Virus record (IMG/VR): IMGVR_UViG_3300009702_001269
Span: 1 to 24,212 of that record
Strand: one strand, 5' to 3'
DNA from: a virus
DNA: 24,212 bases
Under the pieces are notes generated by a model. It ran no database searches and was not told the DNA's origin. It was given only the letters and a program-made list of their open reading frames with translations. Shown in pieces: positions 4,986 through 21,000 of this stretch (within the stretch, counting starts at the first letter, position 1; each line of letters opens with the position of its first letter). The translations under genes and the position numbers were made by a program.

Positions 4986-5016
4986 TTGACTTTTTTGGCT
5001 GGCCGCCATATATAAT
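4986..5016 (+). promoter_or_regulatory. strong sigma70-type promoter
   Basis: TTGACT (4986-4991) is followed after 17 bases by TATATAAT (5009-5016), giving a near-consensus -35/-10 pair (using TATATA as -10; TATAAT would give 19). Transcription would begin near 5023 and run into the structured leader and the BRO-N gene. Confidence 0.72.
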
Positions 5017-5022
5017 GGTATC

Positions 5023-5180
5023 TGAATTACGAAGCGGTTTGCCCCGCTTGCATAAGTGTGTGGCATTTTTTTTTGCCCCACCTATGACGGTGTTAATCCA
5101 TTAGCCGAGATCCCCGTAGCCGTGAGGAGCGGGGCGCCTGCTTCGTAAGCGCAGATAGATCTCGGCTTTATTTTTTATCT
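5023..5180 (+). ncRNA. structured leader RNA or small RNA upstream of BRO-N gene
   Basis: About 158 non-coding bases lie between the promoter and the next start. Several inverted repeats are visible. AGCCGAGATC (5103-5112) pairs with GATCTCGGCT (5158-5167). Inside that are CCCCG (5112-5116) with CGGGG (5130-5134), and GCTT with AAGC (5140-5150), which gives a three-way junction. A separate 9-bp match, TTACGAAGC (5027-5035) with GCTTCGTAA (5140-5148), links the 5' end to the inner hairpin, as a pseudoknot or an alternative fold. There is also a small AAGCGG/CCGCTT hairpin near 5032-5049 and a run of nine T (5066-5074). CACCT (5079-5083) could pair with AGGTG of the BRO-N ribosome site. No known riboswitch consensus is recognised. 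Confidence 0.55.
5103..5176 (+). terminator. intrinsic terminator in the leader of the BRO-N gene
   Basis: A perfect 10-bp stem (5103-5112 with 5158-5167) encloses two small hairpins and is followed by TTATTTTTT (5168-5176). The ribosome site of the next gene starts only 12 bases later. Most transcripts from the promoter at 4986 should therefore stop here unless the fold is changed, which is an attenuator layout. Confidence 0.6.
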
Positions 5181-5198
5181 AAATTGCGGAGGTGCAAC

Positions 5199-5795
5199 AT
5201 GCTACCTACCACGTTTCAATCCCACTTCATTCAAAGCGGCGGACACTACTGGATGCGAGGTCACAACCTTGGCAATCAGTTAGGATTTTCCCGTGCTGCC
5301 GACGGCATCAATCTAATCTACAATAGGAACAAGGAAGAGCTTGCACCCTTCACCATCAAAATGATGGTGGAGGGAGAAACAAGCCCTGCCCGCTACTACG
5401 ACGAACAAGGCTGCTACATTATAGCCATGCTGGCCAAGACACCACAGGCGAAAATATTCCGTAAAAACCTGGCACAGTTCCTGTCTGTGCTCAGGCAAGA
5501 GGCAGTTAACCTCGCAACCATGCAGGCTGAATACGACGACCTCCGCCTGAAAGTCGCTCAGGAACGCTGGAAACGTTACCTGCAATGCAGCGAGTTCAGC
5601 AATTCAAAGGCCGAGCGCTTGGTAGCGCTAAAGTCCAGCGGCTTACTGAGCATGCTGGAGCTAAGCAAAGTCTTTGGTTTGAGTGTGTCACAGATTTACA
5701 AGGTAATGAATATGTACCGGCAGGCCCAGGGCGATTTCAAAAACATGCAACCGCAGTGGCTTCAAGCCGCGAGGCAGCCATGCTTATCCGCATAA
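5199..5795 (+). CDS. BRO-N-type antirepressor-like protein with C-terminal HTH
   Basis: 198 residues. The start at 5199 is set by GGAGG 6 bases upstream. The N-terminal half (HYWMRGHNLGNQLGF about 16-30, then RYYDEQGCYIIAMLAKTPQAKIF about 70-92, then FLSVLRQ) follows the BRO-N pattern 'W....dv...LGy...' and 'gvy.LimlSktp.A..Fr.w....VL'. That domain is found in phage antirepressors and baculovirus BRO proteins and binds DNA or repressors. A coiled segment follows. The C terminus (AERLVALKSSGLLSMLELSKVFGLSVSQIYKVMNMYRQ, about 137-175) is a helix-turn-helix. It lies just after the structured leader and is translationally coupled to the next small gene. A switch role is inferred from family and setting. 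Confidence 0.7.
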   Translation: MLPTTFQSHFIQSGGHYWMRGHNLGNQLGFSRAADGINLIYNRNKEELAPFTIKMMVEGETSPARYYDEQGCYIIAMLAKTPQAKIFRKNLAQFLSVLRQEAVNLATMQAEYDDLRLKVAQERWKRYLQCSEFSNSKAERLVALKSSGLLSMLELSKVFGLSVSQIYKVMNMYRQAQGDFKNMQPQWLQAARQPCLSA

Positions 5796-6121: not shown

Positions 6122-6559
6122 TCAGGTTAGATCGTGCGTATGGTCCATGATGGGAAGTGAGACGTCTATGATATGGAACCTGCTGTTGTCCATTGCAATC
6201 AATCCCGCCTGCACACCCTCAGTCTTAATGGCGTATGTGCCACCGCCACCGATTTTCGTAAACACAGAGTTATCGCGCAAATAATTAATCACAAGCGAGG
6301 ATAGCTGCAAGCCTGTGTCCTTGCTTTGCGATTTCTGCAAGGTCACACTCTGCGTAATGACAAGCAAATCGAAATTGTGCAGCGGGTCTTGTGCCATGGG
6401 AGAACCGTCCTGGTAATTTACCAGTACGGCCGGCATGAGCTGAGCAAGGTTATCGGCGTCCTGAATCTCGCCGGCATATTGCTTGATGGTCTTGATGGCC
6501 GCCGGTTCGAACTTGAGACTCAAATGTCTGATAAGCGCTTGCTGACAGTCAAACATCAT
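6122..6559 (-). CDS. Mu gp37-like (DUF1834) tail terminator/connector protein
   Basis: 145 residues. The pattern IKTIKQYAGEIQDADNLAQLMPAVLVNYQDG (described by parts, residues about 21-52), then DLLVITQSVTLQKSQSKDTGL and a C-terminal IIDVSLPIMDHTHD, fits the gp37 family of Mu-like phages, which sits at the head-tail joining region. Its start overlaps the stop of the gp36-like gene by 4 bases on the minus strand, the same gene pairing as in Mu (36-37). It is the last gene of the minus-strand operon, with a terminator hairpin about 80 bases beyond. The family call rests on pattern and neighbourhood. Confidence 0.65.
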   Translation of the reverse strand: MMFDCQQALIRHLSLKFEPAAIKTIKQYAGEIQDADNLAQLMPAVLVNYQDGSPMAQDPLHNFDLLVITQSVTLQKSQSKDTGLQLSSLVINYLRDNSVFTKIGGGGTYAIKTEGVQAGLIAMDNSRFHIIDVSLPIMDHTHDLT

Positions 6560-6975
6560 TCATACCATTCTTTAGGATTTGTGAGGAAACTGTCATCGAA
6601 TTGCCGGTCTCTCGTCTTGAACCTAACGTGCCCTTTAGTGTTATCCGCCGTTCCAAAGCTTATGATTCCTTTTTCAAGGAGTTCAATGCTGTGTTTGTAT
6701 TCCTTCACAATGAGAGGGTCGTTCTTGAATGTAGTGTTGCCATGTAGAAAGTTGAAGCAGTTAAATTTGACCATGTGCAATAGGTGACCATTGAGTTCGT
6801 CAGTCATATCTAAGACAGTAATGCCATTCATAAATCCGACAAAGGTGCCGGTCGCGTCATCTATTGCAAGCTGTAACATCTCGTCTGGCGTTTTGAGATT
6901 GTCCTCCCGAGTACAGTAAGTGCTCCAGGTAGGAAATCGATCCTTAACCCAATCAGAAGTCACGAGTACTGTCAT
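6556..6975 (-). CDS. Mu gp36-like (DUF1320) head-tail connector protein
   Basis: 139 residues. The protein is helical: MLQLAIDDATGTFVGFMNGITV near residues 33-54 and a long helix DELNGHLLHMVKFNCFNFL, then YKHSIELLEKGIISFG. Gp36/DUF1320 proteins have the same order: a DA-rich helix, a helix that packs as 'diA.y.L', and a 'lek.Gki.L' C-terminal segment. They act as adaptor rings below the portal. It overlaps both neighbours by 4 bases (ATGA), placing it in a tight operon directly before a gp37-like gene. Sequence similarity alone is moderate; gene order strengthens it. Confidence 0.6.
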   Translation of the reverse strand: MTVLVTSDWVKDRFPTWSTYCTREDNLKTPDEMLQLAIDDATGTFVGFMNGITVLDMTDELNGHLLHMVKFNCFNFLHGNTTFKNDPLIVKEYKHSIELLEKGIISFGTADNTKGHVRFKTRDRQFDDSFLTNPKEWYE

Positions 6976-7289
6976 GACAAATTTTCCTTATCTATAAGTT
7001 CGTTTGCGCGGGGTAGACGCAAGTTAAGTTCATGCCACAACTCAGTCAATTTATCGGCTGCTGTGAATACCCTCATATCCCCTTCAGGCACATGGTAAAG
7101 TATTTTTGCCCATGCATTTAAAAGTGCATATTCTATGCTTTCCTTTGCAACCGTAAATTTGTCCTCCGAGTAGAGTTTAAAAATCTCTGTAATATCAGGG
7201 CGCAAACTAACATTTTCATCCAGCCGACCAAAATCGGGTCGGCATTTTTCGCATTCGCAACTTGGTTTGTGTGTCAAAATCGCTGGCAT
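6972..7289 (-). CDS. hypothetical CxCxxC protein in connector operon
   Basis: 105 residues. AGGAGA lies 5 bases before the ATG, a good ribosome site. The N terminus has CECEKC (Cys11, 13, 16) in HKPSCECEKCRPDF, a compact possible metal site with His7 nearby. The remaining 80 residues are mostly helix (ESIEYALLNAWAKILYHVPEG, TAADKLTELWHELNLRL). It overlaps the gp36-like gene by 4 bases and so is part of the connector operon. No known family is recognised. A structural or assembly role is inferred from position only. Confidence 0.65.
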   Translation of the reverse strand: MPAILTHKPSCECEKCRPDFGRLDENVSLRPDITEIFKLYSEDKFTVAKESIEYALLNAWAKILYHVPEGDMRVFTAADKLTELWHELNLRLPRANELIDKENLS

Positions 7290-7325
7290 AATTTTCTCCT
7301 AAGTTTTGGCGGCTGATTAATTGCG

Positions 7326-7523
7326 TTATAAAGCCTTTTGCAGATAGGCAAGCAAATGCCGCCCCACCCATTCAGTGTACGCCGGCGGTATTGCCTGGCT
7401 CATTTCGTCACGTTTCATCCAATCAATTTGCATCGCTTCTGCGGCCTCTTTTCTGTAAAGCATCCTATGTTTCCCGGTGTGTCCGCCATGTCCATATACA
7501 CCAACATCCTGACCGCTGGCCAT
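7326..7523 (-). pseudogene. C-terminal remnant of a phage-type cytosine-5 DNA methyltransferase
   Basis: 65 residues from ATG at 7523, with only a weak upstream AGG. The C-terminal part (EAAEAMQIDWMKRDEMSQAIPPAYTEWVGRHLLAYL, residues about 27-62, described by parts) matches what I know as the end of phage cytosine-5 methyltransferases: an 'aMgIdWMtrdELsqAIPPaYTeyiG' segment, motif X region. The preceding GVYGHGGHTGKHR also fits the stretch before it. All catalytic motifs (PCQ, ENV) are missing, and the upstream DNA encodes the gpG-like protein instead, so this is a fragment of about one sixth to one quarter of the usual length. It may be translated, but it cannot be an active methyltransferase. 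A self-standing small protein is the alternative. Confidence 0.5.
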
Positions 7524-7551
7524 GAGCCTGCCGCTCGTTTTCTTTCAAGGC

Positions 7552-8034
7552 TCATTCTCTGTTTTGCGCCTGCAAAAGCTCGTTAAGCTTTGCTACCATT
7601 TTTTCACCGACTAATTTAGATATATCCTCCTCACCCTTCTTGCCCAACCCCCAGAACGGTCGCAAGTTTTCGCCGCGCTTGCCAACTCCAAGCTCGTTGT
7701 GATAGCTTGCTATTTTCTTCTTTCTTGCATCAGCAATATCGAGCGAAACAGACTTTAGGTCTGATGCAACCTTGTGATCTATGTTTCGAATCATACCGAA
7801 TTGGTCATCAAAAACAAGATCGACCTTATCGACAGGCAGCCCGAGCTCGAGCCGCTTTTCTGCATAAGCGTCTGAATAAGGCTTGAACGGTCTTCCCTCT
7901 ATGTCGCGTCCAGTTCGTGTCCGTTTCCTTATAATCCGCTCTGAAGCAATTCCTATTTCAGATAGTTGCGCCTGGCTTTGCAAATTCCCAATCAGATCGT
8001 CTAATATCTTTTTTACATCCATCAAATCAGCCAC
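7552..8034 (-). CDS. Mu gpG-like virion morphogenesis / tail completion protein
   Basis: 160 residues from a GTG start, supported by AGGAGA 5 bases upstream. The stop of the large terminase gene overlaps this start (TAGTG). The core IGIASERIIRKRTRTGRDIEG then RPFKPYSDAYAEKR (about 27-60) is the hallmark of the Mu gpG/HK97 gp10-type family: a helix, then 'RT.sGrDidGrpFkpYS..Y...K'. These proteins join heads to tails. The C terminus carries an HNELG...RPFWGL segment, also typical. It belongs to the minus-strand head operon, directly after the terminase gene, as expected for Mu-like head modules. Confidence 0.8.
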   Translation of the reverse strand: MADLMDVKKILDDLIGNLQSQAQLSEIGIASERIIRKRTRTGRDIEGRPFKPYSDAYAEKRLELGLPVDKVDLVFDDQFGMIRNIDHKVASDLKSVSLDIADARKKKIASYHNELGVGKRGENLRPFWGLGKKGEEDISKLVGEKMVAKLNELLQAQNRE

Positions 8035-9548
8035 TACATTCTCCTGAACCAGGTTTGCACACGTTGGAATTGTCGTGTCTTGAGCGTTTTGAAACTGCCT
8101 CTTTCAGAATATCTCCGTACCATTATGAAGGCAGTAGCAAGTGCGTCGAGGCCGTCTAATTTATCTTTTGCCTTGCCAAAACTGAGATATTGAGAACGAT
8201 ATCGCTTATAATCTGCATTGCCAATAATCGAGCTGTCGTAGACAATTTGCCCTGTCTGATGTGGATGTACAAGGTTCATAATGCGGCTGACCTTATCGCT
8301 ACCACGATGCTCTGTCTTAAGAGTACTCGTATAGTGTGGAACAATCGGCAGTACTTTTTGTCTTTGTTTCGACCAGTCTTGATAGTACGGTTGTGCTCCA
8401 TGCCACTGATTGAAATCGTTCTCGAATTGCAACACCACCCAGCCAGGAATTTTGCAGCGCAGTGAATCTATATAATCAAAAAAGTTGAAATATGATTCTC
8501 GTCTGACGTAAATGTCTTCCACTACAACCATATTATTATTTGTCAACCCAACAGTGGCGATCGCTTTATAACATGAATGTGGTGAGGTTCCAAATGCTGG
8601 GTCTGCAGCCGACAATGATGTAACGACTTTAATGGTATTGATATTGATTGGTCTAAGCCAATCTTGTTCAAATATGTCGCCCTTGACGGCGGGTTCATCC
8701 TGGTAGTCTCCTGCCCATACATCCCACTCTGTCTCGTCGCGGAAGTGTATCCACTCCCGAGTCGTGCGATATTCTGGCCAGGTAGATTTCTCATTTTCAT
8801 CCAGAGCCGGCATTCCAAAATGATTATCAGGATGTTTCTCGCGCAACTCTATGATAGGAGCATTCTCAGAGGTTGCGTTTGCAAGCGTTAGGCTGATGCC
8901 GTCGTCCTCAAGTTGCCCTGCAACTTCATATTCTATGAACTCGACAACCTTTCTGTTGTGCAGCGATGAGGTGACAGACTGTTTACTATACAAATCGTCA
9001 TTGACAGCCCTTCTAATCCTCTTGAATTCGTCATCGAAAACATTGCGAAGTCCCTTTTCCACAGACCCGGCTGTAAGGTAAGTATTGTTGATGATATATT
9101 TGCCCTTGAGGTCTTGCTGCAATTCCAGGCCGTAGTCGTAGCATAAGAGCTTATTTCTCAACATAAGTCGCTTGATAGCAGCAGTACGCTCCTTACTAAT
9201 TTCGAGTGTTTCACAACTGATGACACAGATACCTCCGATACCAAGTGCAATGGGTTTGATTATGTGAGCAGTGTATCCGATAGCTGATTTACCGCACTTC
9301 CTAAAACCTGAACGCGTGAACATACCCGGCGGCAAATTTGCCATGGAGCGGTGCATGTCATTGAAAGGCAGTGAGAATATAGTAGGGAAATATGTCTTGC
9401 AAAAAACCAGATCGTCAATATCAGCCTGTTTGCGGCGTTCCCACTTCTTTTCTTCGTTGAACTCCGTCTCAACAAAATCATGACGTACATTCTCCAAAAA
9501 TGAAGTGAACCTATCGTCTAGAGCCTCGTATTTTTTAATCTTCAACAT
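8034..9548 (-). CDS. terminase large subunit (Mu gp28-like)
   Basis: 504 residues. The ATPase domain has a Walker A variant, GFRKCGKS (81-88), and an acidic NVFDDEF (about 169-175) in the Walker B position. The second half is the RNase H-like nuclease: AADPAFGTSPHS (around 315), MVVVEDIYVRRES, and a late DGLDALATAF aspartate. This is the DNA packaging motor; Mu-type terminases cut host-flanked genomes by headful. The start (ATG 9548) is the first in-frame start after a stop and has no strong ribosome site. A 141-base gap with a palindrome precedes it. The stop overlaps the gpG-like gene. Confidence 0.88.
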   Translation of the reverse strand: MLKIKKYEALDDRFTSFLENVRHDFVETEFNEEKKWERRKQADIDDLVFCKTYFPTIFSLPFNDMHRSMANLPPGMFTRSGFRKCGKSAIGYTAHIIKPIALGIGGICVISCETLEISKERTAAIKRLMLRNKLLCYDYGLELQQDLKGKYIINNTYLTAGSVEKGLRNVFDDEFKRIRRAVNDDLYSKQSVTSSLHNRKVVEFIEYEVAGQLEDDGISLTLANATSENAPIIELREKHPDNHFGMPALDENEKSTWPEYRTTREWIHFRDETEWDVWAGDYQDEPAVKGDIFEQDWLRPININTIKVVTSLSAADPAFGTSPHSCYKAIATVGLTNNNMVVVEDIYVRRESYFNFFDYIDSLRCKIPGWVVLQFENDFNQWHGAQPYYQDWSKQRQKVLPIVPHYTSTLKTEHRGSDKVSRIMNLVHPHQTGQIVYDSSIIGNADYKRYRSQYLSFGKAKDKLDGLDALATAFIMVRRYSERGSFKTLKTRQFQRVQTWFRRM

Positions 9549-9608
9549 CGGTCTAAAACAACGCTCTCAGATGTTTGATGTTGAATGGGGACAGAGCTAC
9601 ACCGGTGA

Positions 9609-9623
9609 ATCGTTCTGAACGAT
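9609..9623. promoter_or_regulatory. 15-bp palindrome in gap before terminase gene, operator candidate
   Basis: ATCGTTC-T-GAACGAT is a perfect 7+7 inverted repeat with one central base, lying 61 bases before the large terminase start in a 141-base gap (9549-9689). On the minus strand a TTGACA (9678-9673) lies upstream and TATTAT 14 bases after it. That spacing is too short for a normal sigma70 promoter, while TATGCC at 17 bases is a poor -10. The palindrome may be a regulator site. Confidence 0.35.
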
Positions 9624-9689
9624 AAGCGAACGCACCCTCAAGCGAAATAGGCATAATATAGGTTTTCTGAGATGTCAAGTTTTGGACGC

Positions 9690-10199
9690 TCAAAAAGTCA
9701 GCTCGCCATTTAAGCGCCCGCGCACATGATTCTTATAGGCTTCAGCCATGTCAAGGAATTCTGAAGTAACGACACTGGTGCTGCGACGTTGAGCGAATTT
9801 GACGAAATCCTCAAGAAAAAAATATAAGACCGGCACTTGGAACTGAGGGTCAGACACCTTTTCAAGAATTGCGATCAACTTATAGGCTGCGTCTGCAAAC
9901 TTTGAGACCTCCATTCCCGGATCATTGAGTAGTTGTTGCATCTTGTCCATTAGTGCCGTAGCAACATTCTGCGGTGACATCTGAAGATAATTTGCGTCAG
10001 CCTTTGCTTTGCGATAGTCATACCAGGTCTTGCCATGCTCATCCTTCCTATTTGCCCAGTACGATACTGTTTGACGCGTTGGGTGTCCTCTGAAGTGCCG
10101 CGATATTGTCAGTGGATTTTTCTCCTCGTCGATAAACATCATACGCGCAGTGTTTATGTCGTTATTTTTGTAAATGATGTACTCCTTCTTCTTTTTCAT
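9690..10199 (-). CDS. terminase small subunit (Mu gp27-like, DUF1804-type)
   Basis: 169 residues. After a lysine-rich start, NTARMMFIDEEKNPLTISRHF and GHPTRQTVSYWANRK form an N-terminal helix-turn-helix (about 15-52), followed by GKTWYDYRKAK, equivalent to the 'gDdWd..RaA' after the HTH in Mu-type small terminases. The rest is helical (oligomerisation region). Small terminases recognise phage DNA and load the large subunit. The gene lies between portal (18 bases upstream) and large terminase, which supports the call; Mu has the order small, large, portal. No strong ribosome site is seen before the ATG. Confidence 0.72.
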   Translation of the reverse strand: MKKKKEYIIYKNNDINTARMMFIDEEKNPLTISRHFRGHPTRQTVSYWANRKDEHGKTWYDYRKAKADANYLQMSPQNVATALMDKMQQLLNDPGMEVSKFADAAYKLIAILEKVSDPQFQVPVLYFFLEDFVKFAQRRSTSVVTSEFLDMAEAYKNHVRGRLNGELTF

Positions 10200-10217
10200 C
10201 GCAAAGAGAAAAGCCTA

Positions 10218-11336
10218 CTAAAATTGGGATGGCGTTTTAACCAACTCGACTTGATCCTCAAAGACACGGAGACCAAGATCACGATATTCATCAGGGCTGA
10301 TTCTACCGCCCTGGTTGAAGAACTGTTCAAGCGTATCAAGCCGCTCCTTGACGTTGACCGGGTCCTTCTTGTCCATCTGGAAAATAGAATATCTTCGGTC
10401 ACCAAAATTACGATCTTCTATCGTCTTTATGAGTCGTTGCATACAGCTATCTACGAAGAACATATCATCGATACCGATTTCACGCTTCACCTTGAATTGC
10501 GTGAGATTCTCCCCTACTTGTAAGCCATCAGACTGAGAGACAGCGTTCTCGTGACCGAGTATAGCAATAGAAATACCGCGGTTACTATTCGATATAAACT
10601 TGTCGTGATCGCCAGCGCTTCTTTTTGTCTCCACAACATCAATGGAGCTACCTTCTGGCATGACGCCACGACTTGCGGAAGCTATAGCATTAACGGCTGT
10701 CTCAACCTCGTCTATGAATTTAGCGTTTGAACCTGCCGGATATTTTCCGATCACCATGCCCTCGCCGAAAGTCTCGATAAATCCCGCCCACGACTCTATG
10801 CCGAATACTTTAAGGATGTAATCTCGTAACACCGGAAACAGAACTGGAATTGAATATGTCTGGCAGACGAGTGCTTCTGCTGGAATATCACGCAAATCTT
10901 TTCCGAAATCTATCTTGAGTTTTCCCTCCTCGTCATATCTGAAAAAGCGATGCTCTACTTTTTTATGATCTATTGGAACCTGCCGGTTATCTACAACCTC
11001 CCACTCAAAATCGATAACAGAAAATTTCTTATTGACGGCGTCCTGTATATCCTTAAAAAGTCTACGTAGATCGAGCTGACGCAAGACGTTCCTCATCCAC
11101 AGCGCTCTTTCCGATGCTTCAGTTGAGTCGTCATACCCAGTGATTGACCATTCGGACTGAAACCCCGCTCGCCTTCCAACAAGACAGCCGGAAACGTGAC
11201 TGTCAGTCTCAGCCTGATTCATCATCTCTATTATATCACGCCACCGACCCTGACGAAATTGTTTATATGCTCTCTTGTAGAAATCAGCGTTAAAACGAAC
11301 CTGTGGTGTACCGATTTTCTTATTTACAACTATCAC
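10218..11336 (-). CDS. portal protein (Mu gp29-like, DUF935)
   Basis: 372 residues from GTG 11336. I chose this start because AGGAGA lies 6 bases upstream; an upstream in-frame TTG at 11363 would add 9 residues but has no ribosome site. Diagnostic segments are IIEMMNQAETDSHVSGCL with GRRAGFQSEWSI, the typical N-terminal 'mle.D..i.s.l..Rk.av...dW.I', and ETFGEGMVIGKYPAGSN followed by IASASRGVMPEGSSIDVVE, the DUF935 core. Portal forms the twelve-fold ring for DNA entry and tail attachment. It is the first gene of the minus-strand head operon and divergent from the protease-capsid operon. Confidence 0.87.
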   Translation of the reverse strand: MIVVNKKIGTPQVRFNADFYKRAYKQFRQGRWRDIIEMMNQAETDSHVSGCLVGRRAGFQSEWSITGYDDSTEASERALWMRNVLRQLDLRRLFKDIQDAVNKKFSVIDFEWEVVDNRQVPIDHKKVEHRFFRYDEEGKLKIDFGKDLRDIPAEALVCQTYSIPVLFPVLRDYILKVFGIESWAGFIETFGEGMVIGKYPAGSNAKFIDEVETAVNAIASASRGVMPEGSSIDVVETKRSAGDHDKFISNSNRGISIAILGHENAVSQSDGLQVGENLTQFKVKREIGIDDMFFVDSCMQRLIKTIEDRNFGDRRYSIFQMDKKDPVNVKERLDTLEQFFNQGGRISPDEYRDLGLRVFEDQVELVKTPSQF

Positions 11337-11564
11337 GTCTTGTCTCCTGGACTTGTCCGCCAAAAGATAATAAATCTGTGCGCTGTGAATTAAGCTTCAA
11401 GTTTCCGAATAGCGTATGCGTATTCGCGTTGCTTGTTTGGTTTGAATGGAGATCGCTATTTTGCGTGTATGAAATGCGGCAAGATAAAATTCGAAGGCGT
11501 GAAAAAGATAACCAATTTTTTTTGCAAGTCAAGGCTTTTTTTGAATACGCAGATTTTCAGGAAT
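11337..11564. other. divergent intergenic region between portal and protease operons
   Basis: 228 bases separate two late operons that are transcribed away from each other, so promoters for both should be here. The plus side is rich in T and A runs (two long T tracts at about 11515-11545). On the minus side a TATTAT -10-like box lies near 11372 without a clear -35. I see no convincing sigma70 pair in either direction, so an activator-dependent late promoter is possible. The protease frame is open back to 11433, but that part reads as unlikely protein. Confidence 0.4.
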
Positions 11565-12815
11565 ATGAGCGATCTGGGATCCTGGATGAGAAGCCAGCGA
11601 GAAAAACTCGATCTTTCAATTCAGGAATTTGCAGACAAAATGGATGGTGCAGGCGCCAGAGATGCCAGCACAATTAGCGGTATAGAGTTGGGCGACATTC
11701 TGTGCCCTCCAAGAGAAGTTTTGCAGTCAATTGCTCGGGTTTTGGACGTTTCCATCGAAACAGTCCTGAGGCATGTTGATGATAGTTGTCCCGTAAAAAA
11801 AGACGGTGAAGAAAAAGCCAACTTTGAGAATATAGATTGTGCATACAAGAACTCTATCCTGCTAAACATGGACAGGAATGGCAATGGGAAAATAAAAATA
11901 GTTCCCATTGGCGACTTTCCGTTCCATCCGGATGGTCCCCACAAGGTAACTCGTAAGGACGTGGAAGACATGGTGTCGAATTCAAAAACAGACATCATGG
12001 TAGACGTTGGACATGAAGCTATTTGGAATCCTGCTGCTGAAGCGGCTGGTTGGATTCCTTTTCAAAGTCTCGAAGTACGAAATGATGGACTCTACTCAGA
12101 CTACCCTCAGTTTACGCCCGATTTTGATGAAAAAATTTCACAGAGAAAATATCGGTTTTTGTCTCCGGCGTACATACTGCAAAGCAGGGATAAGCATGGA
12201 AATCAAATAGGTGCGCGGCTTCTGCCAATCAGCCTGGTAAACACACCGTATATGGACGAGGAAATTTCGCATCTCAGAAACACAAAAAGATACAAGGAGA
12301 AAGCAATGGAGTATACATCTGAATTGAAGAAAAAATTAGGATTATCTGAAGATGCTACGCCAGAACAGGTCGATGCGAGGCTTGATGAAGCGGTGAAGTC
12401 GCTTTTGGAGAAGGATGTCGATCCAAGCCCGGGCAGCAATGAAGACAATCATAATGAACCGGCAGCCGCTGAGCCAGCCCTAAATTCCGAGGTTGAAGCC
12501 CGCCTAGCCGAGCTGGAAAAGAGAAATGCGCAGAGTTTTGAGGAAAAATGCATCGCTCTAGTGGATGGTGCTATTGCCATTGGAAAGCTGCTGCCGGCAG
12601 ACAAAGACGTTTGGCTTAATTCAGCCAAAGCAGATTTTAACAGTACCAAGGCCAAACTCGATTCGAGAAAGCCAAATTCAGCGATGCCTCAATCAGTCGG
12701 TGTCAATGGTGTTGGTCCCAAACAAGAGAAGAACTATGCAAATTCCTCCATTACCGATTTGATGGAGAACGCGGCGCAATCATTTAGGGACAAGGGTCGA
12801 GTATTGTCTGCCTGA
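11565..12815 (+). CDS. Mu gpI-like prohead protease with N-terminal XRE-type HTH
   Basis: 416 residues from ATG 11565, preceded by AGGA at very short spacing. The frame is open to 11433, but the extra 44 residues look unlike protein. Residues 1-70 (LGSWMRSQREKLDLSIQEFA, STISGIELGDILCPPREVLQ) are a Cro/C1-type helix-turn-helix. Then follows the protease: MVDVGHEAIWNPAAEAAGWIPF and DGLYSDYPQFTP, then YRFLSPAYIL, matching the 'yeHq...pAAGW...l..r.dGLw' and 'rYrylSPvf' signatures of Mu gpI. It cleaves the scaffold during head maturation. The C-terminal 170 residues are the scaffold region, which also has its own start. The HTH fusion is not part of Mu gpI itself. Confidence 0.8.
   Translation: MSDLGSWMRSQREKLDLSIQEFADKMDGAGARDASTISGIELGDILCPPREVLQSIARVLDVSIETVLRHVDDSCPVKKDGEEKANFENIDCAYKNSILLNMDRNGNGKIKIVPIGDFPFHPDGPHKVTRKDVEDMVSNSKTDIMVDVGHEAIWNPAAEAAGWIPFQSLEVRNDGLYSDYPQFTPDFDEKISQRKYRFLSPAYILQSRDKHGNQIGARLLPISLVNTPYMDEEISHLRNTKRYKEKAMEYTSELKKKLGLSEDATPEQVDARLDEAVKSLLEKDVDPSPGSNEDNHNEPAAAEPALNSEVEARLAELEKRNAQSFEEKCIALVDGAIAIGKLLPADKDVWLNSAKADFNSTKAKLDSRKPNSAMPQSVGVNGVGPKQEKNYANSSITDLMENAAQSFRDKGRVLSA
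12306..12815 (+). CDS. nested scaffold protein from an internal in-frame start (Mu gpZ analogue)
   Basis: Within the protease gene and in the same frame, AGGAG (12295-12299) stands 6 bases before ATG 12306, a full ribosome site. The product would be 169 residues: MEYTSELKKKLGLSEDATPE, an acidic, proline- and alanine-rich linker (DPSPGSNEDNHNEPAAAEPA), a coiled segment VEARLAELEKRN and a helical C terminus ending in ENAAQSFRDKGRVLSA. In Mu the scaffold Z is made the same way from inside gene I, and lambda Nu3 inside C is comparable. The start site is seen; its use is inferred. Confidence 0.65.
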   Translation: MEYTSELKKKLGLSEDATPEQVDARLDEAVKSLLEKDVDPSPGSNEDNHNEPAAAEPALNSEVEARLAELEKRNAQSFEEKCIALVDGAIAIGKLLPADKDVWLNSAKADFNSTKAKLDSRKPNSAMPQSVGVNGVGPKQEKNYANSSITDLMENAAQSFRDKGRVLSA

Positions 12816-12861
12816 CCTGTGCCAAAAGTTGAAAATTAACATTTTTGGAGAATATTGAGAA

Positions 12862-13782
12862 ATGCCACTTCTGAGAGAAATATCTGATAGCGCACCCGAG
12901 AGTTTGCTCGCATTGCGCGGGCTTGAAGAGACCGCGCCCATCCTTCAGGACGCGCAGTTTTATGCACAGCCTGGAAGCGCAGCACGAATTAAGCGCGCGC
13001 GCACCGGAACTGTCGTGGCCAAAGTGACGCGCTCGCTAAACGAAGCGAATACCGCAACTCCACCGACACCCAACTATGATACCCCGGCAAAGTCAATCGT
13101 CAGCTTCGACGCGAGTGTTGATGTTCTGCTGGAGGATCGAAATGAGGACATAGAGGCTGAGCTTGCTCACCAAACCTATCTGGAAGCGCGTGAAGCAGGA
13201 TGGGTCTTGCAGACCTTGTTTTTTGAGGGTAATCAGGCGGGCGACGCTGAGGACTTCGATGGTTTTAGGCAAATTGTAGACGTCAGCTGGATTCTTAATG
13301 GAGGGTCTGCTGTCCCAGTTGGCGGAGATGCGCAAAAGGAGCAGCAACAAATCGCGCTTGAAACATTTAAGCAACATGCAAGGCGTGTTCGTGGTGGGGT
13401 TCCAATCGCATACATGAACGATGATTTGCTTGTTCGCTGGATCACCGTTGCCAAGAATCTCGGATATTACAGGCAAAGCAAAGATGCGTTGGGCGACGAG
13501 ATCGAATTGATTGGCAATATTGTCGTCAAGGGTGCCGGCCAAAAACAAGATGGTTCCCAAAACTTGCCTTTTACAGAGACTGGGAATACCAGTTCGATTT
13601 TCTTCGTGCGTTGGGGAGTCCGAGTCGATACAACCTGCTTGACGTCGGTTGGTGTAAAGGGTCGTTATGCCGGACAGTCTGGCAATTTGATTACGAACAA
13701 CGTCAACCTTGATTGTGTATTGCACCTACAGGATCTGACCGCACTCGTGCAATCCCAGGGTTGGAGTCTGTCCACGCTTTAA
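12862..13782 (+). CDS. major capsid protein, HK97-fold type
   Basis: 306 residues following the protease-scaffold gene by 46 bases, with GGAG about 11 bases before the ATG. Order of segments: a helical N arm, ARIKRARTGTVVAKV, a VDVLLEDRNEDIEAELAHQTY spine-helix-like stretch split around 90-110, TLFFEGNQAGDAEDFDGFRQIV (E-loop/P-domain junction), then GGVPIAYMNDDLLVRWITVAKN, IELIGNIVVKGAG and SSIFFVRWGVRVD. The pairs 'FDGF' and 'MN..L..R....A' are typical of HK97-fold capsids. It does not look like Mu gpT itself, so the capsid may come from another phage lineage. Position after protease and scaffold makes the role nearly certain. Confidence 0.8.
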   Translation: MPLLREISDSAPESLLALRGLEETAPILQDAQFYAQPGSAARIKRARTGTVVAKVTRSLNEANTATPPTPNYDTPAKSIVSFDASVDVLLEDRNEDIEAELAHQTYLEAREAGWVLQTLFFEGNQAGDAEDFDGFRQIVDVSWILNGGSAVPVGGDAQKEQQQIALETFKQHARRVRGGVPIAYMNDDLLVRWITVAKNLGYYRQSKDALGDEIELIGNIVVKGAGQKQDGSQNLPFTETGNTSSIFFVRWGVRVDTTCLTSVGVKGRYAGQSGNLITNNVNLDCVLHLQDLTALVQSQGWSLSTL

Positions 13783-13825
13783 ACCTGCTAACTGCTGAGT
13801 AGAATTTATCTTGAGGGATATTGAA

Positions 13826-14299
13826 ATGAAACGAAAAGGTTTTATCCTTGTCTGCATCATCTCATGCTTGATGTTTATCTCAGTCTTGTTTGCCGCAGAC
13901 GCCGTAACCGTTACATCCAAGACGTCCGTTTTCCCGGGCCAGATTTTACAGGTAAGTGGAACAATGGAAGGTCCGGGTACTGCCAATTCTGCGGTATTCA
14001 CTCTCGGAAATTATGATGACGTCAATTGGACGAATTTTCCATTCACATATCAATTCAATAACAATTCTGTCGCGGGCTCAATTCAACTGAAGGCCTGGAT
14101 TCAAGGAAGCTTTGATAAGACAAACTGGGTGACAACGGATACGTTATTGACTCAGTGGTCTACCACTGAGGGGATTGTCAACGGCACAATAGATTTTGGC
14201 AACTCCAAATATCCATACTACCGAGTTGGTGTCGAGGGAGGTGCGTCAAACAATGCCGATACGACATTCGATTTTCGTTTCTGGCTCTATCAGGAGTAA
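13826..14299 (+). CDS. late-operon beta-sandwich protein with N-terminal signal peptide
   Basis: 157 residues. ATG 13826 is preceded by TTGAGGGA, giving a GAGG site. The first 23 residues (MKRKGFILVCIISCLMFISV, then LFA) are a classic Sec signal: basic start, hydrophobic core, small residue before ADAV. The mature part is beta-rich with an SVFPGQILQVSGT strand, NFPFTYQFNNN, KAWIQGSFDKTNWVTTDTLL and YPYYRVGVEGG. This is an Ig-like pattern found in several uncharacterised phage virion proteins, and it could be a head decoration or a secreted host-surface protein. It sits between the capsid and a decoration-like gene. The signal peptide is unusual for a virion protein. Confidence 0.65.
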   Translation: MKRKGFILVCIISCLMFISVLFAADAVTVTSKTSVFPGQILQVSGTMEGPGTANSAVFTLGNYDDVNWTNFPFTYQFNNNSVAGSIQLKAWIQGSFDKTNWVTTDTLLTQWSTTEGIVNGTIDFGNSKYPYYRVGVEGGASNNADTTFDFRFWLYQE

Positions 14300-14307
14300 T
14301 GTAGCAA

Positions 14308-14646
14308 ATGGCGACTCTCACTGTCCAAAAAATGACAATCTCAGGTATATTGCCCACTTACGGTTCTGCAGCGGCCGGTGGTGACGATTTCTCCAATGAC
14401 GGCAAGACGTTCCTGCATATCAAGAATGGTGGCGGCGCAAGTATCAACGCAACAGTCACGAGCCAGGTTGCAACGCCTCCTGCAGGCACGGCGGCTGCCA
14501 ATAAGGTTGTCGCTGTCGCAGCTGGAAGTGAGCAGATGATTGGACCAATCAATGCAACAGGGTTCAACGACGCTTCCGGAAAGGTGCAGATATCATACAG
14601 TGCTGTTGCCAGCGTTACGGTTGCAGCAATATCTGTCTCGGATTAA
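14308..14646 (+). CDS. small beta-rich protein, head decoration candidate
   Basis: 112 residues, ATG with AGGAG about 11 bases upstream, starting 9 bases after the preceding stop. Segments LTVQKMTISGILPTYGSAAA, GGDDFSNDGKTFLHIKNGGG, INATVTSQ, VVAVAAGSEQMIGPINATGF and VQISYSAVASVTVAAISV form about eight strands with glycine/alanine turns. I recall this pattern in small uncharacterised phage head proteins near the capsid gene, but no function is proven. It has no signal peptide, unlike the gene before it. Confidence 0.6.
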   Translation: MATLTVQKMTISGILPTYGSAAAGGDDFSNDGKTFLHIKNGGGASINATVTSQVATPPAGTAAANKVVAVAAGSEQMIGPINATGFNDASGKVQISYSAVASVTVAAISVSD

Positions 14647-14676
14647 GTTTTAATTAATTATTGAGGAAATGACAGG

Positions 14677-15042
14677 ATGGACAAGGTACTTATATATTCA
14701 CGCAACGTCAACTTCAATGGATTCAGAAATGCCGGTCGGCACTCCATCCAATTCCGAGAAGGAATAGCTGAGGCAACAAGTGAAACCGCAAGCGTGTGTG
14801 TTTCTCTTTACGGATATCTTTGTCCAAAGCTTTTCCCTGAGCACAGTGATACTGTGTTAAAGTTGAGAGCTGGCAAGGATTCCCCTCTACCATCTGATCC
14901 ATCTGAAGAACCCGATGCATCTGGTGAATCGGATGATCCGCCATCTGATGATTCAAGTGATAAACCTATACGGGAGGAATCCGTAAGCGTAGCCGAGCCG
15001 AAATCTGGTAAATCCACATTACGTAAGGCGAAAATAAAATAG
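14677..15042 (+). CDS. hypothetical protein with acidic Ser/Asp/Pro-rich C terminus
   Basis: 121 residues, with a GAGG about 10 bases before ATG. The first 65 residues (MDKVLIYSRNVNFNGFRNAG, SIQFREGIAEATSETASVCV) appear folded and mixed alpha/beta. From about 68 to 110 the sequence is disordered: SPLPSDPSEEPDASGESDDP, PPSDDSSDKP, and the end is basic (STLRKAKIK). It lies between decoration-like genes and the small membrane protein, at the place where Mu has gp35, but I cannot assign it to that family. A flexible-tailed minor head protein or completion protein is possible. Confidence 0.6.
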   Translation: MDKVLIYSRNVNFNGFRNAGRHSIQFREGIAEATSETASVCVSLYGYLCPKLFPEHSDTVLKLRAGKDSPLPSDPSEEPDASGESDDPPSDDSSDKPIREESVSVAEPKSGKSTLRKAKIK

Positions 15043-15073
15043 CGTTGCAGTCATGCACGCTTCTCTCCCGAAA

Positions 15074-15102
15074 GGATGGCGCTGCGACAAGCGACGCCAT
15101 CC
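15074..15102. repeat. inverted repeat before small membrane-protein gene
   Basis: GGATGGCG (15074-15081) and CGCCATCC (15095-15102) form a perfect 8-bp stem with a 13-base loop in the 96-base gap between two late genes. It has no T run behind it, so it is more likely an mRNA stability or translation element than a terminator. An in-frame ATG at 15076 lies inside the stem and is therefore an unlikely start. Confidence 0.4.
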
Positions 15103-15138
15103 AATAAATCCAATCAATGGATGAAAGAAGTAGCTAAA

Positions 15139-15378
15139 ATGTCTGATAGTGGGATCTGGAAATTCACGACTGTTCTTCTGTCGAGCGTTCTTGTCACAAT
15201 CTCTATAGGATGGTTCACGATGGCAAGAAATGTTCCAGATTTGGAAGATTTTAGAGAGATCAGGGATGAGGTAAGGGAGATAAAAAGGACGGTCAACAAC
15301 ATCAATACGCGACTATCTGTTCTGGAAAATACAAACTTTGGAGCGCGAGATGGACAGGCTTCACGCAAAGTACGTTAA
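15139..15378 (+). CDS. small membrane protein with C-terminal coiled coil
   Basis: 79 residues from ATG 15139 (alternatives are 15121 and 15076; none has a strong ribosome site, but an AAGAAG lies 7 bases before 15139). After a short polar start, FTTVLLSSVLVTISIGWFTM makes one membrane span. Then ARNVPDLEDFREIRDEVREI and KRTVNNINTRLSVLE are a clear heptad coiled coil. The topology resembles XhlA/hemolysin-type or holin-accessory proteins but in the reverse order (span first). It overlaps the tail tube candidate by 29 bases. The role is unknown. Confidence 0.6.
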   Translation: MSDSGIWKFTTVLLSSVLVTISIGWFTMARNVPDLEDFREIRDEVREIKRTVNNINTRLSVLENTNFGARDGQASRKVR

Positions 15379-15826
15379 AATAGTTTCCGCCGGCGGAGAT
15401 TTGAATGGGGCACCAGAGATGAAGCTTGCCCTCGATGCTGTTTCAATCAAGGGTACGGGATCGATTGTTGAGCATATCACCTCTGAAAATCCAAATCCAG
15501 TCGACCGGGTTGAAATCGGAACAGAATTTGAGGTTCGGGGTGTATTGGGTGCTGCAAGTCAGTCAGAATTGGTCACAGTTATGGGCGGGTCTGTCGCCTC
15601 AAATGTCTATTCAAAAATACAGGGAATACGCACACTCCCGAAGTTTGACATGCGTATTGCGGTACACCGTGCCAGTGACGGGAAGCTTGTTCTTAAAGAC
15701 ATCACCGACTTGAATTTCATGCCTGAGTTAGAGGAAAGCTTCGAGCAGAAGAAACGTTTCTATCTGCCTTTCATCGCGAAATCAACTGATACGAGTGACT
15801 ATACTTCCGATAATTCAGCCGTTTAA
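15350..15826 (+). CDS. tail tube protein candidate
   Basis: 158 residues from ATG 15350, with GGAG 6 bases upstream; a frame extension to TTG 15338 is less likely. The sequence has strands AKYVKIVSAGGDLNGAPEMKLALDAVSIKGTGSIVEHIT (described by parts), then VEIGTEFEVRGVLGAASQ, KFDMRIAVHRASDGKLVLKDITDLNFMPELEE and a mobile C terminus. Size, beta content and position just before the chaperone and tape-measure genes are those of a siphovirus tail tube protein. No sheath gene is next to it. The call rests mainly on gene order. Confidence 0.55.
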   Translation: MDRLHAKYVKIVSAGGDLNGAPEMKLALDAVSIKGTGSIVEHITSENPNPVDRVEIGTEFEVRGVLGAASQSELVTVMGGSVASNVYSKIQGIRTLPKFDMRIAVHRASDGKLVLKDITDLNFMPELEESFEQKKRFYLPFIAKSTDTSDYTSDNSAV

Positions 15827-15859
15827 CGAGATTACTAAAAATAATTGGGAGGCATTAAC

Positions 15860-16024
15860 ATGGCTTTGACAAAAGGTGAAGCAGTCCAGGTACTAGGGAG
15901 AACCGTCGAGAAATTCGGCAAAGCGCTTGATGACGAAGAAACTCCGAATGAGATTACGCGAGAGGAATTGATGGCGATTCTGCAGTCAGCCGCGGCCGAT
16001 GCTTTCAAGGAATTTTCAGACTAA
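15860..16024 (+). CDS. 54-residue small late protein
   Basis: MALTKGEAVQVLGRTVEKFG, KALDDEETPNEITREELMAI, LQSAAADAFKEFSD: helical, acidic, with a clear GGGAGG site (15847-15852) 7 bases before the ATG. It stands 33 bases after the tail tube candidate and just before an intrinsic terminator. No family is recognised; a small tail assembly or head-tail factor is possible. The strong ribosome site and low-complexity-free sequence argue that it is real. Confidence 0.62.
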   Translation: MALTKGEAVQVLGRTVEKFGKALDDEETPNEITREELMAILQSAAADAFKEFSD

Positions 16025-16045
16025 GGCAAGCCCCTCCACCGCCAG

Positions 16046-16089
16046 GCCCGGGACAATCGTGACCAAAATTGTCTCGGGCGACATTTTTT
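16046..16089 (+). terminator. intrinsic terminator between tail tube and chaperone genes
   Basis: GCCCGGGACAAT (16046-16057) pairs with ATTGTCTCGGGC (16068-16079) over 12 bp with one G-U pair and a 10-base loop, then GACATTTTTT. It lies inside the late operon, before the next ribosome site. It could lower expression of the tape measure and downstream genes relative to the tube. Confidence 0.7.
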
Positions 16090-16111
16090 AAAAATCGGGA
16101 GTTAGTCAGAA

Positions 16112-16369
16112 ATGGCAAAAGATGAAAACTACAATATCAGAAAAGTCACTCCTCGAGGTCTCAAGATTCTTAAGAATGCAGGGCTGCTAGATGGAAATCT
16201 CTTCACTCTCGGCCAGGCATGTGAGATTTATCTTGATGAGACCAAGCTACGTGAGGTTTGCGACGCTGTATTCGCTGAAGACATGAGCAAAATGGAATAT
16301 GATGATATTAATCTTGAGGTTATAGGCAAGGGGATTCGTGATTTTTTGCAAAAGTTGGTCGGCAATTAG
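16112..16369 (+). CDS. tail assembly chaperone, short form (gpG-like role)
   Basis: 85 residues (MAKDENYNIRKVTPRGLKIL, NAGLLDGNLFTLGQACEIYL, ending DFLQKLVGN). It sits directly before the tape measure gene, where lambda-type phages have the G and G-T chaperones. CGGGAG lies about 10 bases before the ATG. A slippery TTTTTTG near its end leads to a longer product (next entry). The protein is helical and acidic. It would bind the tape measure during tail assembly and is not in the virion. No direct similarity to lambda G is claimed. Confidence 0.7.
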   Translation: MAKDENYNIRKVTPRGLKILKNAGLLDGNLFTLGQACEIYLDETKLREVCDAVFAEDMSKMEYDDINLEVIGKGIRDFLQKLVGN

Positions 16370-16593
16370 AACGTGTCGGCCAAGCTCATGAAAGTCTCTC
16401 AACAGTAGGAAATTCGTTCGAACTCGGGAAGTTAGAAGATGAATTTATCTGGGACCGTTTCATTCGAACATTAGTGCAATCAGGATTTGGAGATTATGAG
16501 GCCGCAGCCGAGGCAGATGTAGTTGAGGCGGCGGTTTTTTTGTTTCTGTCAAACGATAAGCAGAAGCGAGTAGAGGATTGGCTTAACAGATAG
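16112..16593 (+). CDS. tail assembly chaperone, -1 frameshift fusion (G-T-like)
   Basis: The zero frame reads up to the codons TTT-TTG at 16343-16348. Slipping back by one base gives GCA AAA GTT and an open frame to TAG 16591-16593. The fusion is about 160 residues: 79 shared, then 81 from the -1 frame (AKVGRQLERVGQAHESLSTV, then GNSFELGKLEDEFIWDRFIR, then TLVQSGFGDYEAAAEADVVE, ending KQKRVEDWLNR). The extension has no start of its own and fills the otherwise empty gap before the tape measure start at 16600. The layout is that of the conserved frameshift in siphophage tail chaperones. The frame is seen; frequency of slippage is unknown. Confidence 0.75.
16342..16383 (+). promoter_or_regulatory. 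programmed -1 frameshift element: slippery heptamer, spacer, hairpin
   Basis: TTTTTTG (16342-16348) is in the correct phase (T TTT TTG) for -1 slippage. After a 6-base spacer (CAAAAG), TTGGTCGGC (16355-16363) pairs with GTCGGCCAA (16375-16383) over 9 bp with two G-U pairs and an 11-base loop that holds the zero-frame stop codon. All three parts match the standard model. Confidence 0.8.
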
Positions 16594-16599
16594 ATTCCT

Positions 16600-19302: not shown

Positions 19303-20576
19303 TGCCCTGGACGTTCAAACTATATCAGACCAGTACCTTCGGTAGAATCATTTCAGAGACAGATGTGCTCGACATAGAGAATGATTTCAAAATCGAGAAA
19401 ACTGTCGGTGACCAGATGTGGATAAAGAGCGGTGACATCACAATCAATACCAGGAAAGCGCTTGCTAATACTCCGTTCACATGGTTAGCTGCAATTCTAG
19501 ATGGCAAGGTATTTGATATTTACACCGTTGAAAATATTTATGATGAGTTTGATGAAAAATTCGGGAAGTACAAAATCAGACTATTATCGATTCAAAAACA
19601 ATTCTTTGATGATATCAATGCCACTGTCATGGCATACAGCGCAACCGCCGATGACTGGGGTAACTCGGCTGCATCCACAAATCTGATCATCGATGAGATA
19701 AGGTATGTGGATGAATTTGGCGTTCCGACAGTTGCACAAGGCAGACACGGGTTCAGTCTTGGAGATATCCTGCAGAGCATATCCGGAAGCAACTCAAACG
19801 GTTACAGCGTACAGAGCGTGAGCTTTCCAGGCCCGACTATGAATCAAAACAACGTGCCTGTCATCTATCGCGGCATATCACAGAGCGTATTTCTGCAAGG
19901 TTCACCCACGGCAATCGAGGCGTTCGACCTGACTTTTAAAGATCACAATTCAACCTGGATGGATATGTTTAAACTCGCCATTTTCGGGTTCAATTCGTTT
20001 GTGCGAGCCAATCCGAGCATATTCAAATCAGGCGTCGATGACTTTGTCGGACTCAGTGTTAGTATTGTGCCACGTGTTAACGTATCTCCTGGCACTACTA
20101 AGTCGCCCCGATGGCTCAAGCGCAAAGTTAGCCGAGGCAAGTTTCAACTTGATGGAGTTCACATCAAGAGCAGCATAAACGACATCAATGGAAATCCAAG
20201 CTTTGAATTTAAGCAGGGTGATATTGACGGCAACGAGGTATTCAAAAGAGATGCAGATATCGGGGATCCGAGCTCATCGATTAAGTCTGGGGATACGACG
20301 CTTTACTGGTCAGACGGTACCTACAACGCCACGAGCGGCAAGTATGAGATTTTGGACGTGTCATCAAACCCGCTGCCATATTTCGCTTCGGGGTTGGTAG
20401 AGCCATTTTACGCCGGCCTGTTGACGAGCGGTGACGCGATAGAGGGAACGGTGATCTACGAAGACGAGGATATTCTGGACCACATAGCCATAGGTGCAGA
20501 CATCATACAGTTAAACAAAATCACAAAAGGCAGGCAAGGTCTTAAAATGAAAGTTCAGGGGTTTAAGATTGCTTAA
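19302..20576 (+). CDS. distal tail / minor tail protein
   Basis: 424 residues. ATG 19302 overlaps the tape measure TGA (TGATG), and GGAG lies 6 bases upstream. It is beta-rich: KLYQTSTFGRIISETDVLDI, VGDQMWIKSGDITINTRK, FDIYTVENIYDEF and a long hydrophilic middle with GDILQSISGSNSNGYSVQSV, ending in LGDAIEGTVIYEDE-like strands and KGRQGLKMKVQGFKIA. Gene position after the tape measure corresponds to the distal tail/baseplate hub genes of siphophages. I recognise no specific family. It may be a baseplate component connecting tube and spike. Confidence 0.6.
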   Translation: MPWTFKLYQTSTFGRIISETDVLDIENDFKIEKTVGDQMWIKSGDITINTRKALANTPFTWLAAILDGKVFDIYTVENIYDEFDEKFGKYKIRLLSIQKQFFDDINATVMAYSATADDWGNSAASTNLIIDEIRYVDEFGVPTVAQGRHGFSLGDILQSISGSNSNGYSVQSVSFPGPTMNQNNVPVIYRGISQSVFLQGSPTAIEAFDLTFKDHNSTWMDMFKLAIFGFNSFVRANPSIFKSGVDDFVGLSVSIVPRVNVSPGTTKSPRWLKRKVSRGKFQLDGVHIKSSINDINGNPSFEFKQGDIDGNEVFKRDADIGDPSSSIKSGDTTLYWSDGTYNATSGKYEILDVSSNPLPYFASGLVEPFYAGLLTSGDAIEGTVIYEDEDILDHIAIGADIIQLNKITKGRQGLKMKVQGFKIA

Positions 20577-21000
20577 CCATAGCGTTGACGTTCGATTTTC
20601 CTATTCGAATGGTTTATATGCCAGGACATTAAAGTGCGATTTCGTCGAGTTCGGGATGACATTCTTGGGCGAAGTTGAGGAGGACCTAAACTTTGATCTG
20701 ATAGAGGATTATGAAAGTGTGAGAATGCAAATCAGATTGAAGGTGAGGCTATCTTTTGCTGAGACGCTTTATGTTGCTGACTTCTTAGCAAGCACGTCAA
20801 AGGTACTCACCATAGACGGTGTGAATATTGAAGTAGTAAACGATATGAAGGATATCGATTTTAAGCTTGTCGAAAAAAGCTCGTTTGCAGCGATCACCGA
20901 ACTGCGATTCAAGAAAAGAAGTATAGGACTTGCAAACATGGGAGCAGGATCGTTCGGAGCAACTGGTCACATTGGAAACGTAGGAGTAGCCACGTCATGA
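20569..21000 (+). CDS. hypothetical minor tail protein (TTG start)
   Basis: 143 residues from TTG 20569, with AGGGG 7 bases upstream, overlapping the previous gene by 8 bases. The N terminus (SVDVRFSYSNGLYARTLKCD) and the middle (IEDYESVRMQIRLKVRLSFA, ETLYVADFLASTSKVLTIDG) form regular strands around one helix. The C terminus is glycine-rich (GLANMGAGSFGATGHIGNVG). It is tightly packed between tail genes, so a small baseplate or tail-tip role is likely. No family is recognised. Confidence 0.62.
   Translation: MLNHSVDVRFSYSNGLYARTLKCDFVEFGMTFLGEVEEDLNFDLIEDYESVRMQIRLKVRLSFAETLYVADFLASTSKVLTIDGVNIEVVNDMKDIDFKLVEKSSFAAITELRFKKRSIGLANMGAGSFGATGHIGNVGVATS

Follow-up and report, generated by a model that had tools for sequence, protein, structure and literature searches.

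The leader in front of the Bro-N gene of this Mu-like phage (5019-5198, + strand) contains a three-way-junction RNA with clear covariation, laid out like the C4 RNA of phage P1 and complementary, copy by copy, to both of its own flanks. C4 is the textbook antisense immunity RNA of P1/P7 and their relatives in Proteobacteria. Judged from its sequence, the leader probably represents a C4-type antisense RNA system that blocks the translation of the Bro-N regulator. Expression of the RNA, its action in trans, the block of translation, a promotion of lytic growth by the Bro-N protein in the manner of an antirepressor, and a role of the RNA in lysogeny are inferred.

Genomic context of the leader

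The stretch of DNA analysed here, which we call the window, comprises 24,212 bases and corresponds to a single virus record. Pfam recognized several genes of Mu type in it, namely a MuB-like ATPase, Gam, a Mu F-like protein, a Mu portal and a Mu I-like protease. The gene order is transposase, MuB, Gam, F, GemA-like, leader and Bro-N, where transposase, MuB and GemA were named by their position and their relatives, not by Pfam. The controlled gene (5199..5795, + strand) encodes a Bro-N domain protein of 198 aa (Pfam PF02498, E 4.7e-6). The structural genes are distributed on both strands (6122-11363, - strand; 11433-21332, + strand), and the block of portal and terminase is divergent from the protease and later genes, which is not as in Mu. 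The ORF at 11433-12815 presents an HTH_3 domain joined to the Mu I-like protease domain; translation may in fact begin further inside this ORF, or the two domains may be truly fused.

The closest TerL relatives in named genomes were found in KSB1 (61%) and in the Deltaproteobacteria bin PRO9 (52%), and then in Bacteroidetes, Melioribacteraceae and Ignavibacteriales. In addition, two pairs of Bro-N gene and RNA (L319 and L320) come from a sample of the KSB1 phylum. Since the terminase relatives and these pairs are found there, the host of the window probably belongs in or near these groups.

Organization and fold of the leader

A putative sigma-70-like promoter is located at 4986..5016 (+ strand), with TTGACT at 4986-4991 and either TATAAT at 5011-5016 (19 nt) or TATATA at 5009-5014 (17 nt). 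The preliminary description had considered it near-consensus; the hexamers are indeed present, but the promoter is weaker than that, and a consensus scan called none at the window leader. In relatives, the same place is occupied by TTGACA-17-TATATT (L007) and TTGAAA-17-TATGTT (L091). The 5' element of the leader, TTACGAAGC, has its complement in P3, one of the stems of the junction. By comparison with a2 and a' (see below), TATCT at 5019..5023 (+ strand) is the candidate a1, complementary to a' (AGATA), and it may lie at, or partly upstream of, the transcription start. It is followed by b1 (TTACGAAGCGG, 5027..5037, + strand), the upstream target copy and counterpart of b1 in phage P1, which forms 11 pairs (G-U allowed) with P3. 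The perfect 9-base complement between the 5' end and the inner hairpin, previously pointed out, was confirmed, and TTACGAAG has just two sites in the 24-kb window, at 5027-5034 (+) and at 5141-5148 (-). Two elements had been overlooked in that description: the complementarity of the loop to the ribosome-binding site (5184-5191), and a terminator-like hairpin, T1 (UGCC...GGCA plus T9; 5040..5074, hairpin 5040-5065, + strand; -8.9 kcal/mol), between b1 and the junction. A hairpin with a T run is found at the T1 place also in L007, L091, L311-L313, L319, L320, L322-L324 and phage P1.

The C4-like junction core (5103..5167, + strand) was delimited by folding, covariance model matches and covariation. 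It is closed by the 10-bp P1 stem (AGCCGAGATC, 5103-5112, with GATCTCGGCT, 5158-5167), whose 5' end reads AGCC in the window and GGCC in L007, and includes P2 with a GNRA loop (5113-5133) and P3 (5134-5152). The P3 loop carries b' (GCTTCGTA plus A, 5140..5148), the complement of b1 and b2, and the J3/1 linker carries a' (AGATA, 5153..5157), the complement of a1 and a2. Directly 3' of the P1 stem, the T run TTATTTTTT (5168..5176) renders the junction terminator-like; at this place at least four T per 8-nt window were observed in 22 of 23 copies, and at least five in 21. Further downstream on the same strand are a2 (TTATCT, 5175..5180) and b2 (TTGCGGAG, 5184..5191), the latter overlapping the Shine-Dalgarno GGAGG (5188-5192). 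The P3 loop forms with b2 eight pairs, two of them G-U, in a duplex of -9.3 kcal/mol, and the duplex of b' with b1 is stronger (-15.9 kcal/mol).

The segment 5103-5170 folds with -34.0 kcal/mol (z -3.65), and none of 200 shuffles was equally stable. The three-way junction, the 10-bp stem and the T run before a Bro-N gene described earlier were all confirmed. When all 166 nt are folded together, a different structure has the lowest energy, with the 5' element paired to P2/P3 in a long-range duplex (-57 kcal/mol, z -3.65).

Homologues and covariation

A TerL search gave nine related phages. One of them, L007, was matched by the leader in BLAST (85% identity over 39 nt), and the match immediately precedes a Bro-N gene. 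The Bro-N proteins of the window and L007 are only about a quarter identical. The leader of L007 is complete, with the promoter mentioned above, AATTACTAAGCGG, a hairpin plus T run, the three-way junction, a second T run and the ribosome-binding site. A covariance model was built from the junction core alone and refined twice (last version, R3; E-values from a short calibration). With this model we found L091 among pattern matches, L307 and L309 in a Deltaproteobacteria bin, two copies in G049, L313-L315, three matches in the phylum of the KSB1 bin (two of them, L319 and L320, preceding Bro-N genes) and a further eleven sites in the class to which G016 belongs. The further copies, 22 in total, are distributed in a related phage, another phage and many bacterial genomes.

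Other searches were less productive. Neither Bro-N nor MuB gave a match when viral contigs were searched with the proteins directly, and neither did Bro-N in genome contigs, while TerL worked; when the P2 core was first scanned for as a pattern, L007 was accompanied by chance matches only, two more scans after L091 added no new member, and the RNA was found in none of the remaining Mu-like TerL relatives. L308 was rejected as a short hairpin fitting only P1 of the model, and likewise two terminal repeats of L091 (22-54 and 12789-12821), also short hairpins that fit P1 only. These repeats are two similar copies of one strong terminator-like hairpin; they are separated by 12.8 kb, are close to the contig ends and adjoin a tRNA gene (12830-12903), and are possibly the ends of an integrated element. 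L315 has a doubtful score (33 bits) and was kept as a member because its own flanks fit a' and b'. The weak members L314, L321, L327, L328 and L332 are without a clear match at the ribosome-binding site and may be decayed, misaligned or acting elsewhere.

A covariation check on the homologues gave a clear answer. In an alignment of 24 rows, 96.3% of the cells were paired, 19 of the 22 pairs presented two-sided changes and none of 500 shuffles came near, whereas sliding the structure along the alignment left only 33-49% pairing. These rows include L308, which we regard as spurious; the result does not depend on it, because an earlier alignment of eight rows was equally clear. Between the window and L007, four neighbouring pairs of the P1 stem are changed on both sides, and the complement between the upstream element and the loop differs with compensation (G-C to T-A). 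The window segment 5103-5167 is, therefore, a three-way junction supported by 22 further copies.

The genes behind the RNA are not always antirepressor-like. A Bro-N domain was found behind it in the window, L007, L319 and L320, and below the cut-off in L315. The window protein is 43% identical to that of L320 and 36% to that of L319, and the downstream genes of these two loci show Bro-N/Rha-type similarity. Elsewhere the RNA precedes an integrase (L307), a RadC-like gene (L313) or unknown small proteins. The RadC-like gene of L313 (1592-2068) contains a JAB domain (Pfam E 2.9e-40). In L309, from the Deltaproteobacteria bin, the RNA (2099-2012) also stands before an integrase gene, and an ORF of 46 codons (2128-1988, - strand) runs through the three-way junction; its own Shine-Dalgarno is covered by the P3 complement of TCTAAGAGG, and its end overlaps the integrase start (ATGA), like orf45-anrP of Gifsy-1.

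Complementarity of each RNA to its own flanks

The P3 loop has two complementary sites: one is the element behind the promoter, and the other is the ribosome-binding site of the gene downstream. The sequences of b' and a' and of their targets vary between copies, and each RNA fits its own flanks. For 21 copies, a swap control also paired each RNA with the flanks that belong to the other copies. The mean energy with the own flank, compared with swapped flanks, was -9.9 versus -5.9 kcal/mol for b' and the ribosome-binding site region, -11.9 versus -7.5 kcal/mol for b' and the upstream region, and -3.3 versus -1.4 kcal/mol for a' and the downstream region; in the three tests, none of 20,000 permutations was as good. 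It should be noted that 18 of the 21 RNAs had been found by the junction model, which is blind to the flanks; the other three are the window, which was the start, L007, found by leader BLAST, and L091, found with a pattern that required part of the upstream match.

The two targets of a copy commonly share the same core and differ behind it. The upstream element and the ribosome-binding site read, respectively, TTACTAAG-CGG and TTACTAAG-GAGG in L007, TTCGATGG-CGG and TTCGATGG-AGG in L313, TACAGG-CGG and TACAGG-AGG in L319, TCCAAAAG-CGG and TCCAAAAG-GAG in L322, TCTAAAGG-CGC and TCTAAAGG-AGG in L324, and TCATACG-CGG and TCATACG-AGG in L311. Thus, the upstream copy turns to C where the other runs into AGG/GAG, as is the case in L007, L091, L311, L313, L319, L320 and L322-L324. 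The linker between P3 and P1 (AGATA in the window) fits a short second site just before the match at the ribosome-binding site (TATCT in the window), and the other copies do likewise. A reading of the inverted 9-mer as a DNA operator was rejected, because the same information recurs in the RNA linker and on the ribosome-binding site and changes together.

In most copies the downstream match lies on the Shine-Dalgarno or on the start codon. In L325, L329 and L330 of genome G443, and in L326 of G457, the target of the loop is on the start codon (GCACTATG, GCATCATG) and not on the Shine-Dalgarno. G443 holds five copies (L325, L329, L330, L331 and L332), before small ORFs of about 80-110 codons, a situation reminiscent of Acinetobacter, for which numerous C4-like RNAs have been reported (PMC5320573). 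The assignment of contigs to G443 and comparable bins may be wrong.

Proposed mechanism and alternatives

According to the model that we propose, one promoter would give a transcript with a1b1 and T1, the three-way-junction RNA and its T run, a2b2 on the Shine-Dalgarno, and the Bro-N gene. The junction RNA, ended by its own T run or freed by processing, would expose the loop b' and the linker a' and pair with a2b2 of the same or another transcript. This pairing would cover the Shine-Dalgarno of Bro-N, be it the own copy or that of an incoming phage, so that translation would be blocked and the regulator kept off. The short RNA ended at T1 and b1 would bind the same loop, either as a decoy, to be compared with the short IsrK, or as an attenuator, as in P4; in the attenuator version, binding of b' to a1b1 would free the terminator T1. 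Most likely, the upstream 9-mer is such a decoy or attenuator copy (a1b1), and a2b2, at the ribosome-binding site, serves as the main target.

The attenuator version is suggested by a GCGG-CCGC-GCGG-T block behind b1, upstream of the junction, present in P1 (NC_005856, about 48269-48312), L007, L311, L313, L320 and L332, and expected in shuffles with a mean of 0.01. The window lacks this block in its exact form; there, the pairing of b' runs into GCGG. Its sequence looks like an attenuator: the first GCGG could keep CCGC from the second, and an antisense loop covering the first GCGG would let the terminator form. On this basis the RNA might work mainly by termination, as the CI immunity of P4 does. 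The junction RNA would pair chiefly with b1 on the nascent RNA and prevent the GCGG:CCGC anti-terminator, T1 would terminate, and the copy at the ribosome-binding site would be secondary. The pairing of b' with b1 is the strongest in the window (-15.9 versus -9.3 kcal/mol), T1 lies directly behind b1, other copies have the block far more often than expected by chance, and the layout is compatible with the seqA/CI logic of P4 (PMC4825925). However, most downstream matches sit on a Shine-Dalgarno or start codon, needless for a device that only terminates, and we hold this reading to be rather unlikely as the main mode of action. The two mechanisms are compatible with each other. A different possibility is that the 5' element and the junction are exclusive folds of one leader, an attenuator or riboswitch in cis with no RNA acting in trans; a switch between two folds had been considered possible in the preliminary description. 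The two folds do compete, since the leader as a whole has its lowest energy as the long-range duplex, and a T run ends the junction. A plain switch leaves unexplained, however, the match of loop and linker to the copy at the ribosome-binding site (0/20,000) and the fact that P1, whose C4 acts in trans, has an identical plan; moreover, the copies differ freely in the sequence of the loop, in contrast to a ligand pocket. This switch is thus a rival and not the best reading, and an improbable one.

With the antisense RNA working as we propose, the Bro-N protein could still be an activator of middle or late genes instead of an antirepressor, an option to which we assign a minor share of the probability. 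Its gene comes after the GemA-like gene and before the divergent structural block, where Mu has mor, so an activator role is possible, and Bro-N is a domain assignment only. On the other side, P1 and Gifsy-1 place such RNAs before antirepressor genes (PMC4825925), and L319 and L320 show Bro-N/Rha-type similarity. Finally, T1 and the T run behind the junction (T2) are both terminator-like, as expected from an ordinary tandem terminator or insulator between the early operon and the Bro-N gene, with complementarities arising by chance. This is hardly credible, since it is contradicted by the cognate complementarity in the swap control, by the covariation and by a layout kept before unrelated genes.

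If the antisense system operates as proposed, the model provides a means of searching for such switches in uncultured bacteria, and the copies are a natural data set of matched antisense-target pairs for predicting which phages cross-repress. It also provides a hypothesis for the upstream a1b1 as a decoy or attenuator site, in which a ribosome signal was turned into part of an anti-terminator. More tentatively, and with less than even confidence, this branch of C4-type RNAs, distinct and widely spread, could be an immunity code across bacterial phyla: scaffold and attenuator would be fixed, b', a' and both targets would change together, repression or tolerance between prophages could be read from a dozen bases, and one device would combine translation block and premature termination.

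Comparison with C4 and other known systems

The likeness to P1/P7 C4 (RF01695) suggested beforehand held in part order, junction topology, complementarity of the loop to both the upstream element and the ribosome-binding site, and covariation in homologues. The annotated P1 record reads promoter, a1, b1, C4 RNA, a2, b2, icd and ant1, and P1 C4 folds into the same three-way junction, in which b' occupies the P3 loop and a' the linker between P3 and P1 (J3/1). The window shares the order of promoter, a1b1, junction RNA, a2b2 on the ribosome-binding site and gene, and has b' and a' at the same positions. P1 also has a hairpin plus T run behind b1, shows between b1 (GTTAGTG-CGG) and b2 (GTTAGTG-AGG) the contrast seen in the relatives of the window, and has the GCGG-CCGC-GCGG-T block in common with five copies. 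Of the features of C4, the window thus has a covarying three-way junction, b'/a' complementary to a2b2, and a1b1 behind a promoter; the weakest point is the a2b2 match, with its two G-U pairs. On the other hand, C4 has a UUCG loop and the window type a P2 with an internal loop and GNRA loop; the P1 stem has 17 bp and no T run in phage P1, and 10 bp followed by a T run in the window; the target gene is reached through icd in phage P1 and lies directly behind b2 in the window; and the window type occurs in hosts outside the groups where C4 is listed. C4 RNA is processed by RNase P at a GGW site (PMC5320573), located at the 5' end of the P1 stem.

Other known systems share part of this plan. In IsrK/orf45/anrP of Gifsy-1 (RF01394), too, a short RNA extends from promoter to terminator, is complementary to the sequence that follows it and controls translation before an antirepressor-like gene, and the short IsrK activates anrP in trans (PMC4825925). 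The small ORF of the homologue L309, with its AUGA overlap to the next gene, is like orf45-anrP, whereas no equivalent of orf45 was recognised in the window. In phage P4 (PMC4825925), CI RNA with seqA/seqC likewise has complementary sites upstream and downstream of the antisense RNA; it acts by transcription termination, and the comparison covers the layout.

Rfam searches with gathering and permissive thresholds, on the window and its homologues, gave no family for the window. RF01695, which scores 68.8 bits on P1, did not match the window at E <= 5 or E <= 10; c4-a1b1 (RF03163) and isrK (RF01394) match P1, the latter below the cut-off, and not the window. The c4-2 RNA (RF02944), of the same clan CL00128 (C4, c4-2 and c4-a1b1), differs in a longer consensus P1 with an internal loop; it had no match in the window or most copies, and scored 39.1 bits on L091 and 38.9 on L322 (cut-off 41). 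Because these models miss the window and R3, in turn, does not find P1 C4, the RNA was not filed as C4 or c4-2. The earlier suggestion of an undescribed system applies, then, to the branch, absent from Rfam 15, but not to the kind, which is described in clan CL00128. A Mu-like phage whose nearest TerL relatives come from bins of KSB1, Ignavibacteria and Bacteroidetes is now seen to carry the C4 plan, which also occurs in genomes distant from the proteobacterial hosts of known C4 RNAs and stands before Bro-N, integrase, RadC-like and unknown genes. The best reading is that the window RNA forms a separate branch, C4-like by every testable feature of its layout.
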